Shown here piece by piece: positions 4,829 through 40,645 of a DNA stretch of 64,000 nt. The DNA is from Mucilaginibacter xinganensis. GTDB lineage: Bacteria > Bacteroidota > Bacteroidia > Sphingobacteriales > Sphingobacteriaceae. A program made the position numbers and the translations under genes. Under the pieces are notes generated by a model. That model was not told the DNA's origin, made no database searches, and saw only the letters and a program-made list of their open reading frames with translations. Position 1 is the stretch's first letter, and each line of letters opens with the position of its first letter. The DNA lies in contig JAMFSA010000047.1 of assembly GCA_026225055.1 (NCBI GenBank), positions 62,001 to 126,000 on the forward strand, read 5' to 3'.

Positions 4829-5218
4829 CTAACGACTTAGATTACAGATTATGACGTAAAGTAAACCACGAAGCTTTGCTTCATTAAATACGGGGAAACA
4901 AGTGCCACAATATTTTCTGTGGGATTTAAATAGTATGGCATCTTTATAATATAAAATGCAGATAATTGTAATGGTTAATCTCACCAAACTTGTTAAGATA
5001 TAAATGACGTTTTTATTCAATAAGGCTATTGCAGGAGACAACCATTCCGGTATTTCCTCATCGGGCAGATCAACTTTGCAATTGATAAGTCGGAGGTTAT
5101 CTATGCCATCCTCAGTATTTATAGTATAGGCAATCGGGATAGATACCTGTTTTCCAGTGGCTTGTAAGTGGATTGATATTGAAACTGCTTTTTCCATATG
5201 TCCATTTTTACCTGTCAC
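4829..5218 (-). CDS. Hypothetical protein, possibly a remnant; start overlaps the GH127 stop (ATGA)
   Basis: 129-aa ORF with ATGA overlap; no recognisable family. Confidence 0.3.
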   Translation of the reverse strand: MTGKNGHMEKAVSISIHLQATGKQVSIPIAYTINTEDGIDNLRLINCKVDLPDEEIPEWLSPAIALLNKNVIYILTSLVRLTITIICILYYKDAILFKSHRKYCGTCFPVFNEAKLRGLLYVIICNLSR

Positions 5219-7566
5219 ATTTTACTTGTTAATATCCGTACATCAGTGATATCCGCTGTCTGCATTCCGTTGGTCGCCAGGAATTCGACAAGCAAGGGAC
5301 CCTTTATGTCCGGCGGCAATGTATAATCGGCGCTGATGGTACTATTGGCTGTATCTGCTTCCATCTCAATATGTGCCACTTTTAATTTGTTGACGAGGAT
5401 ATCAAAGGAACACTTTACGGTGGAGGAGCGGTAAGCAATATGCAAAGTCCTGGCTAAGGGTGAGAAACGCATCTGATAGCTAAAAGTGCCCGATGCATAC
5501 CGCCAATGCGAGTTATTGTTAAAGCCGGATTGGCTGCTGTTGAGCTGCAAATGATGGTCAACCTCAGACTGCTGTTCTCCGGGTGAAACCTGGTCAATGG
5601 TCCGTGGGGCTAATTTGAGATAAGTTTCATCCAGCGCGACAAGCTCTGCTTCTTTTTCGCTGATACTGTCTTTAACGGTAATTGGCCAGTAGAGCATATA
5701 CCGCGTGTCATGGACGCGATAGAACGGGATAAGCTTCAGGTTTTTAAATTGCGGCTGCAGGATCATATCGCTTATTTCAAAAGTCATTTCCCTGGAGCCT
5801 TCTTTTTTAAGACCGGAAGCAGGGTTATTCCCCGTTTTAACCAGCAGCGGGGATTTTGTCAACGCATATAAAGGTCCCCCTGCAATATGTCCCCAACGGC
5901 TATCATTAGCAAACAGGCCGCTCATGTTTGTGGTATCCGTTGGTGCTGCCAGAACGATCGGACCATGTAAAAATGATATCCAGTCGGAGTGGTCCGGCAG
6001 GTATTCCGTATAATTTTTCATGGGTAGCATGACAGTCACCTTATCGCCTTTATGCCATGTACGGCGGATGCCCGCATAGTTCCCGTGGCCGTTTTCAGGC
6101 AGCACCTTCCCATTGACTTTCAGGACAAATCCCCCATCAATGACCCAATAAGGTTTCCTGACAAATAAGGTAAATAATTTTGGTGAGGTTACCTCTACGG
6201 ACAGGGTTGTTTGTTCCTGGTCAGGAAATCCATTCTGCTGTATGAGCCTAATGCCCTTATCCTTCCAGTTCAGCACCGAAGGTATGAACAGGTTTAGGTA
6301 AATGTCGTTATTTTTATGCGTATAGATCAGTTCGCCATACTTTCCATGGTTTTCCATGCCCGTGCCTACACAGCACCAGAAGCTCTCATCGGCAGTGGAA
6401 TACACCCGGTAATGCTGCGGGTGGATCGGCGTAAAATACACGAACCCGCCGGCGCCGGGGTGTTGGGAAGACAGGATATGGTTATAAAGCAGCCTTTCGT
6501 AAAAATCCATGTATTCAGGTTTGTCCTCATCTAAGAACAGCATCTTAGATAGTTTAAGCATGTTATTGCTGTTACAGGTTTCAGGGCCCTGTTCCGATTC
6601 GATCATCGGCGAGAAATTATCAGTTGGGTTGAAGTGTTCGCGAACGCTGTTACCGCCGATCGAAATGCTGCGGTTGCGTACGACTGTCTGCCAAAAAAAG
6701 CGCGCGGCAGCAGCATAACTGCTGTCGTTGCTCAGTTCGGCTATCCGCTCAAAGCCTATTACTTTAGGTATCTGTGTATTGGCGTGCAGGCCGGTTAGCC
6801 TGTCTTCATGGTTCTCCAGTGGATCCAGAATTTGGTGCTGGCAGAACCTTTCTGCCAGCACCAAATATTTATGGTGACCCGTAATGGCATAAGCGTCCGC
6901 CAGCACTTCGTCCATCCCGCCTTGCTCGGTGTTGAGCATTGTTTGCATTTGCTTTTCACTTAAGCCGCTTGTTTCGTTATATGCCCAGTCGGTAAGTTTT
7001 AGGAATTCCTGCCGGGCCTGTTCATTGCCCGCCAGTAAATAGCAATCGCGCAAGCCTGCAAACAGTTTATGCAGGTTGTACCAGGGTACCCACTTTTTAT
7101 TGAATTCGCTGAAATCACCCAATTTAAACTGTGCCCACATGTGCATGCCTCCGGGAACGCCGCCTATATACCCGTTTCCATTCTTTTCCTGGCAGCGGCC
7201 AAGCTCACTTACCATATAGTCGAGGCGCCGTTTACATTCATCAGATTTTGTTGCCGCATACATTTGTGCAAGCGCGGTAAGGTAATGTCCGCCGGTGTGG
7301 CCGTCAAGGCCGGTGCTTTCCCAGTTGCCATAGCTTTTCGCTTTCGGTTGCAGGCCCGCTTCACGCAGAAATGGGGCCAACAGCCTGTCGGGTTCCAATT
7401 TAAGCATATATGCGAGGTCAGTCTGCTCTGCCGAAAGAAAGGGGCTTTGCAGCAACCGGACGTCGGAAAGTTTAAAAAGCAGCATTTTGTTGGACTGGCC
7501 GAATGTCGGTGTAAAAAGGCCTGCGGAGAGAATGACTATCAGTGTCTTTAAATGAGATTTTTTCAT
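5215..7566 (-). CDS. GH127-family beta-L-arabinofuranosidase-like (DUF1680)
   Basis: Signal peptide; FKLSDVRLLQSPF, LDGHTGGHYLTALAQMYA, NTEQGGMDEVLADAYAITG, ESEQGPETCNSNNMLKLSKMLF, WCCVGTGMENHGKYGELIYTH. Confidence 0.9.
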   Translation of the reverse strand: MKKSHLKTLIVILSAGLFTPTFGQSNKMLLFKLSDVRLLQSPFLSAEQTDLAYMLKLEPDRLLAPFLREAGLQPKAKSYGNWESTGLDGHTGGHYLTALAQMYAATKSDECKRRLDYMVSELGRCQEKNGNGYIGGVPGGMHMWAQFKLGDFSEFNKKWVPWYNLHKLFAGLRDCYLLAGNEQARQEFLKLTDWAYNETSGLSEKQMQTMLNTEQGGMDEVLADAYAITGHHKYLVLAERFCQHQILDPLENHEDRLTGLHANTQIPKVIGFERIAELSNDSSYAAAARFFWQTVVRNRSISIGGNSVREHFNPTDNFSPMIESEQGPETCNSNNMLKLSKMLFLDEDKPEYMDFYERLLYNHILSSQHPGAGGFVYFTPIHPQHYRVYSTADESFWCCVGTGMENHGKYGELIYTHKNNDIYLNLFIPSVLNWKDKGIRLIQQNGFPDQEQTTLSVEVTSPKLFTLFVRKPYWVIDGGFVLKVNGKVLPENGHGNYAGIRRTWHKGDKVTVMLPMKNYTEYLPDHSDWISFLHGPIVLAAPTDTTNMSGLFANDSRWGHIAGGPLYALTKSPLLVKTGNNPASGLKKEGSREMTFEISDMILQPQFKNLKLIPFYRVHDTRYMLYWPITVKDSISEKEAELVALDETYLKLAPRTIDQVSPGEQQSEVDHHLQLNSSQSGFNNNSHWRYASGTFSYQMRFSPLARTLHIAYRSSTVKCSFDILVNKLKVAHIEMEADTANSTISADYTLPPDIKGPLLVEFLATNGMQTADITDVRILTSKM

Positions 7567-7574
7567 TTTATCAG

Positions 7575-8249
7575 TTATGTTATCGGTAAGCCAGGTAACT
7601 TGTCCGCTTTTACTGCAGGCTGCCCGGAAGCCCCGCGGTTTGCAGATGGTTTTGCCGGAAGGTTTTCCGGGTCATGACCTGCCTTAAGCGCGGCAGCATC
7701 CGGGTCAGGTGAGAACTTGACTTTGGCCGCCTGCCTGAAGATACGTTCCCGGGTTGCCGGCGCAACCGATGCTGTAGGTGAAAAGGCCCGGCTGACGGTG
7801 GACGGGGAAATCCGCAGGGTTTTAGCTATGGTATAAATGGTTGGCTTTGAGGAACCGTTTTTTTCACTGTTACGGGCGACAAGGTTCCTGGCATTGTTAT
7901 TCAGCTCATAACCCATCTCTGCTGCCGCTGCTAACACCTTTGCCGTCGTTTTTGGGGAAACTGTTTCTGAACGTTGTAATGCGCGGCATACCGTGCATGC
8001 TGAGATATTCAGCCGGTTCGCCAGATCCCGCATGGTCACCCTGCCGTTTGTAAGAGGATCAGCGGCAACAATATTTTTTTTGAAATAACCTTTGTATCCT
8101 GCCGCAGCAGCTACGTATGCCCGTGTTGCGGGTTTGACTTTCGGATGCCCGTTTAGCGCCTGGCTTACGGTCGACGGGGACAAGTGTAAAAAGGCCGCCA
8201 GTTCCGCCAATGTAATTTTCTTTTTAGGTTTGACCTTTTTCTTCTTCAT
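7575..8249 (-). CDS. Sensorless regulator with three tandem LacI-type HTH domains
   Basis: Three LacI HTH signatures: ITLAELAAFLHLSPSTVSQALNGHPKVKPATRAYV; VTMRDLANRLNISACTVCRALQRSETVSPKTTAKVLAAAAEMGYELNNNARNLVA; TIYTIAKTLRISPSTVSRAFSPTASVAPATRERIF. No periplasmic-binding-like domain. Start MKKKKVKPKKK at 8249 preferred over the ORF-track start at 8390. Confidence 0.85.
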   Translation of the reverse strand: MKKKKVKPKKKITLAELAAFLHLSPSTVSQALNGHPKVKPATRAYVAAAAGYKGYFKKNIVAADPLTNGRVTMRDLANRLNISACTVCRALQRSETVSPKTTAKVLAAAAEMGYELNNNARNLVARNSEKNGSSKPTIYTIAKTLRISPSTVSRAFSPTASVAPATRERIFRQAAKVKFSPDPDAAALKAGHDPENLPAKPSANRGASGQPAVKADKLPGLPIT

Positions 8250-8291
8250 ACTAATCGGCTTACAGAGTACAGGCAAATGTCCCGGCTCACC

Positions 8292-8353
8292 TGCAGGATC
8301 CCGCAAAGACAAACTCTGCTGGATCCTGCAAGTCCTGTCAGCGGGAGATCCTG
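8292..8353. promoter_or_regulatory. Candidate operator array upstream of the triple-HTH gene
   Basis: TGCAGGATCCCGCA (8292-8305) and TGCTGGATCCTGCA (8317-8330), plus a degenerate third GGGAGATCCTG (8343-8353); GATC centres at 8298.5, 8323.5 and 8348.5, i.e. 25-bp spacing. Confidence 0.5.
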
Positions 8354-8476
8354 TTATAGTCGCTGTTCCTGACGTGAATAAAATTATCATATGCAGACGG
8401 CATTGAATTGCTCTATTGTCAAAACTTATACATTAAATGTTCAGAGACGGGCCCGGCTTATCCGGGTTCCGGTTTA

Positions 8477-10435
8477 TTAAGGCCGATCGGTGCGGAAAGG
8501 AGAGGCAGGCAATCCCGCGTTGTTTATTAAATTCGCTCCTTCAGGGTTATCTGCCCAGGCATACCTGACATAAACGGGCTGCTGAACCTCGCTGCTGCTG
8601 ACGACCACCTGATCACCGGCAATCCGGGCTTCGGCCCAGACGAAGTGTTTATCCGGCCCGGCAATGGCAAAACCGGCCAACGGGCGGCTATCCGCTGTGG
8701 CCAGGCCACAGCCCACCTCATTGAAAGTAACTGTGATCCGGTCGCCGCTGACCCGTGCCGATTGAAAAAGGGGCCCCGATGCGATCACCTGCTGATCAGC
8801 GTAAGCCACTTTTTCAGCGGCCAGCGCCAATCTGTCTCCAACATCTTTTTTATCCAGGGGGTGAATGTCGTTCCATTCCCCTGTTCCGATAGTTACCGCC
8901 ATCGCGGTATTTGGCAGCGAAAGCGCCCTGAACTGTGCTTCCCTGATTTCCGCCCAGGAACTTTCGGACGGCGAATACTGCACTTCTCCGAAATTTGGCA
9001 ACTGGACGATCAGAAAAGGCAGGTCGTTTCTTTTCCAGCCATAGCGCCAACTGCTGATCAGTGTCATCAGCAGCTGGCGGTAATCCCGGCTGCCGGTGTT
9101 CGACTCGCCCTGGTACCAAATGATGCCTTTAACAGCGAAGTTCAGCGCCGGGGCCACCATGGTGTTATATAACCCCGCAGGTTCGTTCTGCGGTGAAAAT
9201 TGCAGGTCACCACCCGTTCCGCGCATATTGCGGGAAGGCGGGTAAACGAGCCCGACCTGGTAGGTCCAGTCGCCGCGCAGATCAATCTTCGTTTGTCCGT
9301 CTGTTAGTTCATAACGTTTGTCGGGTACAAAGCCGCCTTTCCCTGCTGGGTTGGTGACACGTACGACGATTTGGTTTTTGCCTTCCTTCAGCAATCCTGC
9401 CGGCACATCGTAGCGCCTGGGCGGGTACTCATAAGTCGTATTACCGACAAGCCTGCCATTCAAATAGGTTTCGTCGGCATTGACGATCCGGCCTAAAAAC
9501 AGTTTGGCTGGCTTGCCTGTCATTTCAGCCGGGATATCGAATTCTTTCCGGAACCAGACGATGCCGTTCAGGTCACGAACCCCCTGATCGGCCCAATAGC
9601 CGGGCAGCCAAAACCGGTGCCAGTTGTCGGGTACGTAAGCCGGATCGTACCACTTGACATCGGCCGACATCCCCCTGTCCTGTCCGGTGAAAAGCCGTCC
9701 CGCGGCTCCGCCGGAGTGCTCCGGGTGCAGTGCGTGCTTCATAAAGGCCGAATCATGAAATTGTGCCAGCCGCTGCGCGTAACCGGCTATCCCTTTGATG
9801 CTATCTTCGCTGATCCAGGCTTGTATGGGTGTGCCGCCGATGCTGGAATTGATGATACCGATGGGTACATGATACCTGGCAAAGAGCTGTTTGGCAAAAA
9901 AGTAAGCCACCGCGCCGATGTCCAGTATATGCTCACTGGTGACGGTGGTCCAGTTGCCCGGCGGCAGATCATCGTGCACCCGCTGAACATCTGCCAGGGT
10001 GGGTACGAAGAAATACCTGATCCGGGGGTAGTTTGCACCGGTGATTTCCCCGGGATATTTTTCTTTAACCCGCTCCATTTTGATCGTCATATTGGATTGG
10101 CCGGAACAAAACCAGACATCTCCTATCAGAATGTCCTGAAGTAAGATGCGGTTATCGCCCCTGAGTTCCATCCGGTAAGGGCCGCCCGCATGCATTTCCG
10201 GCAATACCGCAAACCATTTGCGGTCGCCGCCGGTGCGGGCGCTGATCCTTCTCCCGTTAAACGTAACAGTCACTTTTTCGCCGGGCCTGCCCCAGCCCCA
10301 TAAATTAATTTTGGCATCCCGCTGAATGACCATACCGTCCGCAATCAGTTGCGGCAGGCGTATATCAGCCCTGGTGCTATTACACTGAAATAAGGCTAAA
10401 ACGAGTCCTAAACAAAAAATGAGTAATTTTTTCAT
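8477..10435 (-). CDS. Sialate O-acetylesterase-like (SASA/SGNH) carbohydrate esterase with inserted beta-sandwich domain
   Basis: IGDVWFCSGQSNM, GIINSSIGGTPIQAWIS, IIWYQGESNT, IHPLDKKDVGDRLAL motifs; signal peptide. Confidence 0.85.
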   Translation of the reverse strand: MKKLLIFCLGLVLALFQCNSTRADIRLPQLIADGMVIQRDAKINLWGWGRPGEKVTVTFNGRRISARTGGDRKWFAVLPEMHAGGPYRMELRGDNRILLQDILIGDVWFCSGQSNMTIKMERVKEKYPGEITGANYPRIRYFFVPTLADVQRVHDDLPPGNWTTVTSEHILDIGAVAYFFAKQLFARYHVPIGIINSSIGGTPIQAWISEDSIKGIAGYAQRLAQFHDSAFMKHALHPEHSGGAAGRLFTGQDRGMSADVKWYDPAYVPDNWHRFWLPGYWADQGVRDLNGIVWFRKEFDIPAEMTGKPAKLFLGRIVNADETYLNGRLVGNTTYEYPPRRYDVPAGLLKEGKNQIVVRVTNPAGKGGFVPDKRYELTDGQTKIDLRGDWTYQVGLVYPPSRNMRGTGGDLQFSPQNEPAGLYNTMVAPALNFAVKGIIWYQGESNTGSRDYRQLLMTLISSWRYGWKRNDLPFLIVQLPNFGEVQYSPSESSWAEIREAQFRALSLPNTAMAVTIGTGEWNDIHPLDKKDVGDRLALAAEKVAYADQQVIASGPLFQSARVSGDRITVTFNEVGCGLATADSRPLAGFAIAGPDKHFVWAEARIAGDQVVVSSSEVQQPVYVRYAWADNPEGANLINNAGLPASPFRTDRP

Positions 10436-10474: not shown

Positions 10475-11536
10475 TTATTTTACGAACGGATCAATCAGGG
10501 CAATACTTCCGTCTGCACGGTGGTGAAGAAGAGCAACTTTAATGTTCCGCAGATGCGTTTTGCCGGAAAGCTGCGTGTCATGGTAAAACAAATACCAGGT
10601 ACCTTTGAAATCAACGATGGAATGATGGGTTGTCCAGCCCTGAACCGGCTTCAAAAAGATCCCTTTATAGTAAAAAGGTCCGTAAGGGCGGTCCCCGATA
10701 GCGTAGGCCAGGTAATGCGTGTCCCCTGTCGAATAGGTGAAATAATATTTACCGTTATATTTGTGCATCCACGATCCTTCGAAGAACCGCCGGTCATGGT
10801 CTTTTCCCAGCAGGGGCTTTCCTGCCCCATCGAGAATAACCACGTCATGCACCTCCCCGTCAAATTGCTTCATATCAGGCTTTAGTTTGACCACCTTGCA
10901 GTTCAGCGCCGGCTGATTATCCTGCTTAAGGTCGGTTTTGGAGCCGTTCGGATCGTATTTTCCCGTGGCCCAGCGCTGCAGCTGCCCGCCCCAGATGCCG
11001 CCGAAATACATATAAGCCTGGCCGTCGCTATCCGTGAACACTGCCGGGTCGATACTGTAGCTCCCTTTGATTGGTTCTGGCTCAGCCCTGAACGGCCCCG
11101 CCGGATTCCTGGAGGTAGCCACCCCGATCCGGAAGACATCCTTTTTATCTTTCGCAGGAAAATACAAGTAATAGGTGCCGTTTTTGTAGGCGCAGTCGGG
11201 CGCCTAGAGCTGCCTGCCTGCCCAGGGGATATCTTTAAGGTCGAGCGCTATCCCATGATCGGTAGCCGGGCTGTTTGCGCTGGTCATGGATAAAATATGG
11301 TAATCATGCATAGCGAAATGATCGCCCATGTCATTTTCTGGAATGCCGGCATCGATATCATGTGAGGGATAGATATAAATCTTTCCCTTAAAAACATGCG
11401 CGGACGGGTCGGCCGTGTAGATCGATCTGATCAGCGGCTGGGACAGGTATTGCCGCTGGGACTGCGCAGCAGTGATCGCCGGAACGAGCAAAGCCGCCGC
11501 GGTGATGCACTTTGATATGATAAATTTTCTTTTCAT
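10475..11536 (-). pseudogene. GH43-family glycoside hydrolase interrupted by one in-frame TAG (11204-11206)
   Basis: ...DLKDIPWAGRQL*APDCAYKNGTYYLYFPAKDKKDVFRIGVA...; both halves in the same frame. Paralogue at 29636 reads MWAPDCIERAGKYYFYFPA, so TAG replaces Trp. Confidence 0.85.
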
Positions 11537-13714: not shown

Positions 13715-13759
13715 AATAGGTGTTTATGCGGGCTGAATTATCTGCCGGAATTTCTTACG

Positions 13760-13802
13760 CAATCGATTGTAAAGATAACAACGTTTGCTGAGGATCACCA
13801 AA
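13760..13802 (-). promoter_or_regulatory. Candidate GH67 promoter with adjacent palindromic operator
   Basis: On the minus strand: TTTG (13802-13799), 21-bp spacer, TATCTTTA (13777-13770, near Bacteroidota -7 TAnnTTTG), then CAATCGATTG (13760-13769). Confidence 0.5.
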
Positions 13803-14250
13803 TTGGTACATAGGGTGCAACTATTCCGGAAACACCCCCTGGTTTTTTAACAGGATAACAAAGATGGCCGGCGCTGATGTGCTGTTGTTTTTATAATTCC
13901 TTGAATTACAGTTGATTTATGGTGCTTTTGGGTATGTAACGACGGGTCGTAGACTTCGGGTGCCGTGGTTGATCCTGCCTTTGGGCCCATGATCAGGGGC
14001 AGCCGGATGAACATTTGTGATAGAAATTTGGCAATTTGTTAGTACCTGGAGCTTGATATAACGGCTTTCGGGCTGTCCGGGCCGCCTACCCGGCACCTAT
14101 AAAGCGGGCAATCCGGAGAGAACGCCAGGGGCGCACAGGCTAATCATACGCCCGGATCCCGCCCGCGCTTTTTGCGGTGGATCTTTTATTTGCTTTAAAT
14201 ATTTGGTTACATGTATTTTAAAGAAAAAAAAACCGCAGGAAGCAGTTCCT

Positions 14251-14275
14251 GCAATCGATTGCTTTTGTATATTTG
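14251..14275 (+). promoter_or_regulatory. Candidate HTCS promoter -7 element with abutting perfect palindrome
   Basis: GCAATCGATTGC perfect 12-bp palindrome (14251-14262) just upstream of TATATTTG (14268-14275), an exact TAnnTTTG match. Confidence 0.5.
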
Positions 14276-35873: not shown

Positions 35874-38800
35874 TCAGGCCGTTTCACTGCTTTTTTCTGC
35901 TTTCCTGTATTCTGTCGGCAGCATATGGAACTTCTCTTTAAAAGACCGTGAAAAATAATGAGGCGTGGCAAAGCCGGCCTCATAGGCTATCTGCGAAACC
36001 GTCAGGTCGGTTTTTAAAAGCAGTATGGCTGCCCGGTCAAGTTTATATGACCTGATAAATTCCACAGGCGGGAGCCCCGTGAGCTCGAATATTTTGGTAT
36101 AAAGTGCAGCACGGCTCATCGCTAAATGCTCGCTGAGGTCCACCACAGAAAATTTGGGGTTGTTCAGGTTGTTTTCTATGTATTTGATAACGTTGCCCAG
36201 GAATTTTTCCCGGCTTGACTCCACTTCTATGTCCGGGTGAACTACCTTCAGCTGCCTGGTGTACGTATTTTTAAGCATCGTATTGAGGTGCAGCAGATTT
36301 TTTATCTTGACATTTAAAATTTCAAAATTAAAGGGTTTGGTGAGATAATCATTTGCTCCGGATTCAAGTCCTTTCAGCTGCTCATCTTCGCGGGTGCGGG
36401 CGGTCAGCAGAATAAACGGAATGTGGCTTGTACGCTTATCCGCCTTGATTTTCTTACTCAGCGTTATGCCATCCATGTGGGGCATGGTGATGTCGCTGAT
36501 AATCATATCGGGGTGGCATGACAGGGCTTTATCCCAGCCTTCCAGGCCGTTGGCGGCTTCAACAACCTTATATTGCCCTTTGAGGTTATCCTTGATATAA
36601 TACCGAAACTCATCATTGTCTTCAACAATGAGCACGACAGGCATTTCTCCGGCAGCCAGACCAGCCCTTTTTGCGCGCTGTTCTTTTTCCTTCAGGTTCG
36701 GTTGGTTTGCCGGTTCGGCTGCCGCTGTACTTTCAGCGAAAATTTCCAGCGGGAGCAGCACGCTGAAAACGGAGCCTTTTCCTATTTCACTGTCAACAGA
36801 AATACTGCCGTCATGCATCTCTACAAATTCTTTGGTGATAGAAAGACCGATCCCGCTGCCGGGGTTCAAATTCCCTGAGTTGGTATCAGGCGCCTGATAA
36901 AACCGTTTGAATATTAAGTTTTTTCTGTTCGGGTCCACGCCGATCCCGGTATCGCTTATTTTTAATTCCAGCACTATTTTTTGGGGGCTGGCGGTGGCAT
37001 GCTTGATGACGTTGACAGCGACCGTTCCTCCGGGTAAAGTAAATTTGAACGCATTGGAAAGCAGGTTAAACAGGATACGTTCCACCTTATCGTGATCAAA
37101 ACGTACAAAAAGCTTTTCCTGCGGTGCATCGAAACGGAAATGAATGTTCCGCGATTCCGACAGGTCATGAAAGGAATCAATCACATCGCTGACAAACGAA
37201 ATGATTTCGCCTTCGCCAACGCTGAGCTTTAATTCCTGTTCTTCCAGTTTCCTGAAGTCTAAAAGCTGGTTCACCAGGTTCAGCAGCCGCCGGGCATTTC
37301 TTCGTATGACCGCCAGCTGGCCTGTAGTCTGCTGGTCGCTATGCTCTGTCATCAGCTTATCTGCGGGTGCCATGATCAATGATATCGGCGTGCGGAACTC
37401 GTGGCTCAGATTTGTCAGGAACTTAATTTTCATCAGGTCAAGTTCATGCAGGCGCTCCGCTTCTTTTCTTTCTTGCTCCAGCGCGAGTTTTTCCTTCACT
37501 TTCTTAATTCCCCTGTGGCGAATCAGCAGCAGTATACCCAATGCCACCAGGCCATACATCAGGTAGGCGTACCAGGTCATCCATAACGGCGGGTGGATGA
37601 TGATTCGGATTTGCGCGCCCGTATTGTTCCAGATGCGGTCATTATTACAGGCACGCACCATAAATAGGTATTCACCGGGATCTAAATTGGTATAATAGGC
37701 AGTGGTAGTTGAACCCACGTAATTCCAGCTCTTATTAAACCCTTTCAGCCTGTAAGCGTAGCGGTTCTGCTGCGGAAGGGTAAAGTTAATCGCTGCATAG
37801 CTGATCGAGAAATCCTGTTTATAGTCCAGGTCGATCTGTTTTGCTACTGAAATATCCTGTTTAATTGCCTGATTACCGGCCGGTTTTACAATGTTGTTGT
37901 TTATTTTTAACGCGGTGAGGAATACAGGAGGAACATTAGCGTTCCTTTTAACTTCCTGTTGCGGTTCGATATAATTAAAGCCGTCCGCTCCCCCAAAAAA
38001 AAGCGCCCCCTTACTGGTTTTAAGTCCGGATCCGTCAAGAAACGCGTCGTTTTGCAATCCGTTATAAGCCGAATAATAAATGAATTTTTTTAACGATGTG
38101 TTCAGGGTGCAGATGCCTTTATTCGTACTTAACCATATATTACCACTGTTATCTTCCAGTACTTTGTGCACTACGCCATCCGGCAGTCCTTCCGGCGCGG
38201 AATAGGCTGAAAATTTCGCATCTTTGACATGAAGGCAAAACAGCCCGTCCCCTGCTGTGCCGATCCACATATTGCCGTTATGATCTTGCAGGAGCGAAAA
38301 AACGCGGTCGATCGCCATTCCGGTATTTTTGTTGTTGTATACCTGGAATTTTTGGCTTACCGGGTTTAAAACAGCTATCCCGCTGCCATAGGTGCCAATC
38401 CATATATTCCCCTTGTGATCCTCCTCGATGGCCCGGATATAACCATTCACGGGCAAAGGCCGGTCTCCGGGGGAGGCAGGTGCCGGGACATATTTTAAAA
38501 ACGTTTTTGTGATAGGGTTGAACACGTTCACACCTCCGCCGTTAGTTCCTATCCATACCTGGCCGTTTTTGGTTTCCTTTAAGCAGAAAATATCGTTGTG
38601 GTTAAGGTGCAGATCGTCTTTTCCGGCATTCAATTGTTCGTAACGGCCAGTTTGGGTATTGTAGATAAACAGTCCGTCCTGAAAAGTGCCGATCCAGAGC
38701 TGTTGATTGTGGTCCAGCATCATGCTGAGGATCGGCAGCCCGGCTGAATTGCTTTTTTCTTTTGCTTTAATGGCGATATGGCTGAACAGGCCGCTGTTGA

Positions 38801-40022
38801 CGTGAAAAAGGTTCAGGCCGCCGCCATCTGTGCCGACGAATATATCGCCGTCTTTGCCTTCCGCAAACGATGACACGAAGGGCGCGTTAAGCCCGCCAGG
38901 GTCGTAGGCATTGTTTTGCCGGGAATTGAATAAGGTAAGGTTCCTGTCATACTTGTCCACACCGCCCTGGTAAGTGCCGAGCCAGTATATACCCTTCGGG
39001 TCGATATAAATACAGCGGATAGATTTGCTGTTCACGCTGAATTTATCCCTGTCATCATGATAAAAGCGCCTTACATTTCCGGAAGCCGGGTCGATAATGT
39101 CGAGGCCTCCTTCGGCTCCAACCCAAATTTTATCGCCATCTGCTGCTATGCTGTAGATCAGGTTGCCGCTGAGCGTATTGGCATCTGAGGGACTGTACCT
39201 ATAAATTCCGAAAGTGTTGAGGTCAGGTGACAGGCTGCATAATCCGTTATCAGTCCCTATCCACAATCGTCCCTGGCATTCGGCAATCGTATTCACCGCG
39301 CCCGCAGGGATGCCTGGGGCAGCAGCATCTTCATGCTTAAAGGCTATAAAACCGTCCGACCTTTTATCATAGAGGTACAAGCCCTCGTCCGTGCCAACCC
39401 ACATTCTCATTTGGCTGTCACGGAAAATACATAATACAATGCCTGAACGGAGCCGTCCGTTTTTGCCTTTATCTGGCCGGTAAAGTATTTCTTTTTTGGT
39501 TGCGGGGTCCAATACGCACACGCCCGTGATTGTTCCGATCCAAAGGCGGCCGTAATTATCGCCGTATATAGATTTGATATAGCTGTGAGCAAGGTACCCC
39601 CCCGAATCGGCCTCGGCATAAGTCAGGAACTGGTCGTGGGAACGGTCGAGGTAATACAATCCGCCGCCCATGGTACCCACCCAAAGCCGCCCCGCGCTAT
39701 CCTCATATATGCTGGTAACTTCTTTAGAGCGGTACCCAGATTTATCCCCCGGATCAAAGCGATAGGCTTTATGTTCCATGCCGTCGAACCTGTCGAGTCC
39801 GTCTGCTGTTGCAAACCACAGAAATCCGTAATGGTCTTTGATAATTGCATTAATCGTATTGGAGAGCAGGCCGTCGTGAGAAGTCAATACTGTAAATCGT
39901 ATAGCCTGTCCGCGGCATTGGAAAGTAATACCTGCGCTAACGGTGAATATAATGCAGAAAAATAAGCGCGAAACCATTGCTCGCTTAAACCCTGCCCGTA
40001 AATATAACATGCCCGGTGTCAT
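35874..40022 (-). CDS. Hybrid two-component system regulator (HTCS)
   Basis: Propeller repeats (GFLWFATADGLDRFDG, LWVGTMGGGLYYLD...), HisKA LSHEFRTPISLIMAP, HATPase, receiver (VLIVEDNDEF...IISDITMPHMDG), AraC HTH (VVDLSEHLAMSRAALYTKI...AGFATPHYFSRSFKEKF). Confidence 0.97.
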   Translation of the reverse strand: MTPGMLYLRAGFKRAMVSRLFFCIIFTVSAGITFQCRGQAIRFTVLTSHDGLLSNTINAIIKDHYGFLWFATADGLDRFDGMEHKAYRFDPGDKSGYRSKEVTSIYEDSAGRLWVGTMGGGLYYLDRSHDQFLTYAEADSGGYLAHSYIKSIYGDNYGRLWIGTITGVCVLDPATKKEILYRPDKGKNGRLRSGIVLCIFRDSQMRMWVGTDEGLYLYDKRSDGFIAFKHEDAAAPGIPAGAVNTIAECQGRLWIGTDNGLCSLSPDLNTFGIYRYSPSDANTLSGNLIYSIAADGDKIWVGAEGGLDIIDPASGNVRRFYHDDRDKFSVNSKSIRCIYIDPKGIYWLGTYQGGVDKYDRNLTLFNSRQNNAYDPGGLNAPFVSSFAEGKDGDIFVGTDGGGLNLFHVNSGLFSHIAIKAKEKSNSAGLPILSMMLDHNQQLWIGTFQDGLFIYNTQTGRYEQLNAGKDDLHLNHNDIFCLKETKNGQVWIGTNGGGVNVFNPITKTFLKYVPAPASPGDRPLPVNGYIRAIEEDHKGNIWIGTYGSGIAVLNPVSQKFQVYNNKNTGMAIDRVFSLLQDHNGNMWIGTAGDGLFCLHVKDAKFSAYSAPEGLPDGVVHKVLEDNSGNIWLSTNKGICTLNTSLKKFIYYSAYNGLQNDAFLDGSGLKTSKGALFFGGADGFNYIEPQQEVKRNANVPPVFLTALKINNNIVKPAGNQAIKQDISVAKQIDLDYKQDFSISYAAINFTLPQQNRYAYRLKGFNKSWNYVGSTTTAYYTNLDPGEYLFMVRACNNDRIWNNTGAQIRIIIHPPLWMTWYAYLMYGLVALGILLLIRHRGIKKVKEKLALEQERKEAERLHELDLMKIKFLTNLSHEFRTPISLIMAPADKLMTEHSDQQTTGQLAVIRRNARRLLNLVNQLLDFRKLEEQELKLSVGEGEIISFVSDVIDSFHDLSESRNIHFRFDAPQEKLFVRFDHDKVERILFNLLSNAFKFTLPGGTVAVNVIKHATASPQKIVLELKISDTGIGVDPNRKNLIFKRFYQAPDTNSGNLNPGSGIGLSITKEFVEMHDGSISVDSEIGKGSVFSVLLPLEIFAESTAAAEPANQPNLKEKEQRAKRAGLAAGEMPVVLIVEDNDEFRYYIKDNLKGQYKVVEAANGLEGWDKALSCHPDMIISDITMPHMDGITLSKKIKADKRTSHIPFILLTARTREDEQLKGLESGANDYLTKPFNFEILNVKIKNLLHLNTMLKNTYTRQLKVVHPDIEVESSREKFLGNVIKYIENNLNNPKFSVVDLSEHLAMSRAALYTKIFELTGLPPVEFIRSYKLDRAAILLLKTDLTVSQIAYEAGFATPHYFSRSFKEKFHMLPTEYRKAEKSSETA

Positions 40023-40102
40023 TTGCTTTTAAATTGTACAGACGTTCACCTACTGATGAACAGAAATAAATTGTAGTGTAGAAAATAAACGGTTTATAAG
40101 GC

Positions 40103-40138
40103 GTGCCCTTTATGCTAAAAGTTTAGCATAAAGGGCAC
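40103..40138. repeat. Perfect 36-bp palindrome in a divergent intergenic region
   Basis: GTGCCCTTTATGCTAAA-AG-TTTAGCATAAAGGGCAC; 17-bp perfect arms. Confidence 0.9.
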
Positions 40139-40645
40139 ACTTGTAAATTTAGATTTTAATTCGTTAGGAAACAATGCAGCGCACAATAAAAGAAAAGTAT
40201 AGCCCAACCTGGCACATTTTTACTACTCATGCAATGTTTTTTGGATGCTTTGCATGTATTCTTTATAACAGCAATGTCTCACAGGATGCTCAAAGTGGAG
40301 CCGGTGTGCTGGTTTAGATGGCCTGGCGATTCGTTGCATAATTCTGCATTCAGGTTTTCGCGGGCCTAAAATCTGCTATTTTCAACCAAAGTGTTAAACA
40401 TTTGGACATTTGTGGCACATGAAGCAGCATTTTCAAAATACTTTTGGTCGGAATCAGCAGTGAAGGCATTTGCTTCACTTCCTGTTAAATTTTATACCGG
40501 CCTGGAAATAATTTTGTCCGGGAGGATTAAAATTCCTCCCGGTACCACGTAAACCATACATTATGAACAAAAACTGCTTTTTTAACAGGTCTTCGGATAG
40601 TTTGACCATACAGGATATTTAACCCCGGCACAACGAGAGAAAGCT

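Follow-up and report, generated by a model that had tools for sequence, protein, structure and literature searches.

Twin Palindromes in the Leader of a Triple-HTH Gene

Two tandem palindromes lie directly upstream of a gene of the soil bacterium Mucilaginibacter xinganensis that codes for a protein with three LacI-type helix-turn-helix (HTH) modules, and our favored reading, at even odds, is that they form a tandem LacI-type operator for autoregulation of this gene. In the window, i.e., the whole 64,000-nucleotide stretch of DNA analyzed here, candidate operator palindromes 1 (TGCAGGATCCCGCA) and 2 (TGCTGGATCCTGCA) match the DNA exactly at 8292–8305 and 8317–8330, respectively (these and the other palindromic sites below are given without strand). 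Both are even 14-bp palindromes of inverted half-sites with one mismatched pair each, and they display a GGATCC core with the center AT and TGC...GCA ends. As an earlier note on this DNA had claimed, both fit the pattern TGCnGGATCCnGCA, with 25 bp between their centers, and they lie within the proposed range of about 40–100 bp upstream of the gene, namely at −43 to −81 relative to its ATG (8249). The note's statement that the window holds no other full match to this pattern is likewise borne out by a scan of the window, which gave exact matches at these two sites only. The window contains one pair of mutually similar near-palindromes no more than 120 bp apart, whereas 40 dinucleotide shuffles gave 0.025 such pairs on average.

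Two further elements of the earlier description did not survive. The sites had been called phased, but 25 bp corresponds to 2.38 helical turns at 10.5 bp per turn, which sets the sites about 137 degrees apart on different faces of the helix; therefore, the palindromes are not phased. The claimed degenerate third copy (CGGGAGATCCTGTT, 8342–8355) is an unconvincing, weak match that was picked after the fact: it agrees with the pattern at 7/12 fixed positions, which 1.7% of the 14-mers in the window also achieve, and we dropped it as an unproven site with a chance-level match.

The genome-wide scan that had been proposed as a check returned two exact matches to TGCnGGATCCnGCA in the whole 6.64-Mb genome, both before the triple-HTH gene. 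Matches with one mismatch number 12, against about 15 expected from simple arithmetic under uniform base composition, and on these near-chance numbers we rejected a TGCnGGATCCnGCA regulon elsewhere in the genome. The motif has about 30 occurrences across 148 other Mucilaginibacter genomes, nowhere in side-by-side copies; 28 of the 29 loci inspected fall within long ORFs, and none of the 29 adjoins a LacI gene. Even with up to three mismatches allowed, the 25-bp-spaced pair is absent from all other genomes of the 149 in the Mucilaginibacter set that includes this one. The pair, being unique in this set, is therefore not a product of chance, although its uniqueness alone does not prove a function. 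A REP-like dispersed repeat was ruled out, as the 20-nt arm of the inverted repeat that spans the two sites (see below) is present once in the genome.

The Triple-HTH Protein and Its Genomic Context

The gene downstream of the palindromes (7575–8249, minus strand) codes for a 224-aa protein, for which the earlier note had proposed three DNA-binding domains. This is confirmed by three matches to PF00356, the LacI-type HTH (E 1.6e-25), and by three tri-helical modules of moderate confidence in an AlphaFold model built from two sequences. The approximately 35 residues that follow HTH3 are modeled with low confidence, and among the 25 Pfam families shown for the protein there is no match to a sugar- or effector-binding domain. 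In a typical LacI regulator, each subunit has a single HTH and a sugar sensor. The 224-aa protein shares the PF00356 module with these transcription factors, and its modules are closest to the TIYDIA...TVSRAL LacI regulators of the genus; however, unlike the LacI family, in which PF00356 is coupled to a periplasmic-binding-type effector domain, it features three modules per chain and no effector domain that we could find. An alternative start at 8390, which would make the palindromes coding, was judged unlikely because the Mucilaginibacter rivuli relative of the protein begins near its first HTH and because the 47-codon extension to 8390 displays neither homology nor a codon-position coding signal.

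The host cluster is a xylan/arabinoxylan-type utilization operon, i.e., one for the digestion of plant fiber. A GH127 gene (5215–7566, minus strand; PF07944) lies 8 bp downstream of the triple-HTH gene and is probably co-transcribed with it. Upstream and co-oriented is a gene for a SASA-type esterase (8477–10435, minus strand; PF03629), which leaves a leader of 227 bp between it and the ATG of the HTH gene. In this leader, we recognized neither a sigma-70-type nor a Bacteroidota-type promoter site. The cluster also contains GH43, GH67 and hybrid two-component regulator genes. The GH43 gene (10475–11536, minus strand) is interrupted by a single in-frame TAG stop at 11204–11206, which could be a genuine nonsense mutation or an assembly error.

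Comparison with the Operators of Ordinary LacI Regulators

In the genus, a 14-bp palindrome of the form TGCAATCGATTGCA or TGCAACCGATTGCA precedes several ordinary LacI genes. The present genome has seven exact copies of this type, two of them directly before LacI genes, one of which adjoins a gene that, from its N-terminus, we take to code for a xylulokinase. At the head of the present cluster, the GH67 gene and a gene for a hybrid two-component regulator diverge from a shared 634-bp promoter region, which contains two related LacI-operator-like sites: CGCAATCGATTGTA (13758–13771) before the former and TGCAATCGATTGCT (14250–14263) before the latter. By their resemblance to TGCAATCGATTGCA, they suggest that the head of the cluster is under LacI control.

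Palindromes 1 and 2 share with the TGCAATCGATTGCA operators the 14-bp inverted repeat, the TGC...GCA ends and a position 30–140 bp before the start of a LacI-HTH gene, but differ from them in the GGATCC core and in having AT rather than CG at the center. In a survey of LacI-family regulators, sites lie mostly 30–140 bp before the start codon, 72% of the regulators studied are autoregulated, and even operators have a central CG in 1173 of 1251 regulators (PMC4052901). The remaining 78 of the 1251 have even motifs without a CG center, 49 with a different and 29 with a degenerate central pair (PMC4052901), and the CG center is thus usual rather than obligatory. Of these traits, the twin palindromes display the even symmetry and the location, and lack the central CG. 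They further depart from the autoregulatory operators of that survey (PMC4052901) in that two tandem copies lie 25 bp apart and that the regulator downstream carries three HTH modules but lacks an effector domain.

The same comparison bears on whether the palindromes might serve a different regulator, for instance one of the ordinary LacI proteins that this genome encodes, in place of the triple-HTH protein. Several such regulators are present, and TGCAATCGATTGCA operators lie at the head of the cluster; yet the core of the twin palindromes differs from the recognized operator of the genus, and the genome offers no second TGCnGGATCCnGCA target, which fits a site that acts only locally and on its own gene. 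We regard operators for another regulator as quite improbable.

A Hairpin in the mRNA as the Main Rival Explanation

The two palindromes together with their flanks form a larger inverted repeat (8289–8333, minus strand) with 20-bp arms and a 5-nt loop, which the earlier note had missed. On the mRNA (minus) strand, 19/20 positions of the stem are paired, including two G-U pairs (ΔG −34.2, z −5.0), whereas the plus-strand fold is weaker (ΔG −26.3). This hairpin is the main rival to the operator: as an intercistronic stem-loop between the esterase and the HTH-GH127 segments, it might stabilize or separate segments of the message or lower downstream expression, with the palindromic character of its arms being secondary. 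We consider such a role possible but rather doubtful.

In its favor, in addition to the extent of the pairing and the greater stability on the mRNA strand, the six positions that flank the palindromes are all paired, which by simple arithmetic would occur by chance in about 0.3% of cases for six given positions; as tandem palindromes alone do not require this, we count it for an RNA-level role. The signal is also retained in a 97-nt leader (z −5.0). Against this, an RNA stem has no need of arms that are themselves palindromic, for which the chance is about 0.1% per 14-bp site with one mismatch (simple arithmetic), and related DNA contains several hairpins of similar quality per 100 kb. Moreover, there is no Rfam match, and no homolog of the hairpin was found among the 148 other Mucilaginibacter genomes from which covariation could be assessed. 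The hairpin thus resembles the intercistronic stem-loops of bacterial operons in being a stable structure between co-oriented cistrons, but differs from them in that each arm is a palindrome in itself and in the lack of a terminator T-run. An intrinsic terminator is ruled out because no T-run follows the stem, and no terminator-like site was detected at 8289–8333 on either strand. Known riboswitches and other Rfam RNAs were likewise sought, with none in the window. Elsewhere in the window, a near-perfect hairpin (40099–40142), the arms of which measure about 18 bp, lies just upstream of the gene for a second hybrid two-component regulator (35874–40022, minus strand).

Distribution of the Triple-HTH Gene and Possible Mutational Origin of the Repeat

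Over 1,000 Bacteroidota genomes were searched; apart from ordinary LacI proteins, they yielded a single other triple LacI-HTH protein, from M. rivuli, which is 38% identical across all three modules. Its gene (L007:1483–2085) adjoins a hybrid two-component regulator gene and a xylanase-like gene, the product of which we presume from its sequence to be a GH10 enzyme. The DNA upstream of the M. rivuli gene is AT-rich and holds no matching palindromes. No relatives were found on plasmids, and the literature, in a partial coverage, yielded no description of triple LacI-HTH proteins. In a related genome, G048, which has largely the same cluster, the esterase and GH127 genes are separated by a gap of 83 bp that lacks both the HTH gene and the palindromes; hence, the HTH gene and its leader were either gained here or lost in G048.

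A near-perfect inverted repeat is also found inside the GH127 coding sequence (6826–6870); the G048 relative can be aligned here gap-free, but its sequence is no palindrome. This repeat looks like a template-switch mutation, and its absence from G048 implies that a process of this kind seems to act here, making a purely mutational origin possible for the repeat in the leader as well. The twin palindromes would then be a by-product devoid of function: either a palindrome was duplicated, or template switching in the course of replication turned a quasi-palindrome into a near-perfect inverted repeat. The other such repeat, in the GH127 gene, and the lack of conservation evidence for the palindrome pair speak for this origin. 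However, the pair falls in the 227-bp leader of a gene for a DNA-binding protein, is spaced from this gene as an operator would be, and matches the LacI operators of the genus in length and ends. A neutral event would not predict this, and we consider the explanation improbable.

A Predicted Effector-Blind Autoregulatory Circuit

Returning to the operator, we propose that the 224-aa triple-HTH protein, lacking a sugar sensor, probably binds palindromes 1 and 2 and that, once bound, it would repress or tune the transcription of its own gene and of the GH127 gene that follows after 8 bp. The effect would be a local, effector-blind feedback within the xylan/arabinoxylan utilization operon. This scheme assumes an internal promoter for the HTH gene, and the direction of the effect is likewise our supposition. 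The autoregulation put forward in the earlier note is therefore plausible in outline, given the LacI-type modules, the 14-bp TGC...GCA operators of the genus and a pair unique to this leader, whereas its scheme of three sites for three domains finds no support: the third site is no better than chance, the 25-bp spacing is unphased and the two palindromes comprise four half-sites. A LacI HTH module normally contacts a single half-site, and four half-sites facing three modules count against three-for-three binding. This mismatch, the AT center, the lack of palindromes in M. rivuli, the failure to recognize a promoter and the strong hairpin are the points that weigh against the operator.

More speculatively, and in our view with a fairly low likelihood, the triple-HTH protein may represent a sensor-less regulator that reads tandem GGATCC-centered operators, a dimer of which would carry six HTH modules and could bind several palindromes simultaneously, providing effector-blind feedback or competing with an ordinary LacI regulator in xylan clusters. 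If a sensor-less chain of three LacI HTH modules is indeed linked to a matching, unique tandem operator, the DNA-binding modules of the LacI family would be re-usable as an effector-independent regulator in the polysaccharide clusters of Bacteroidota.
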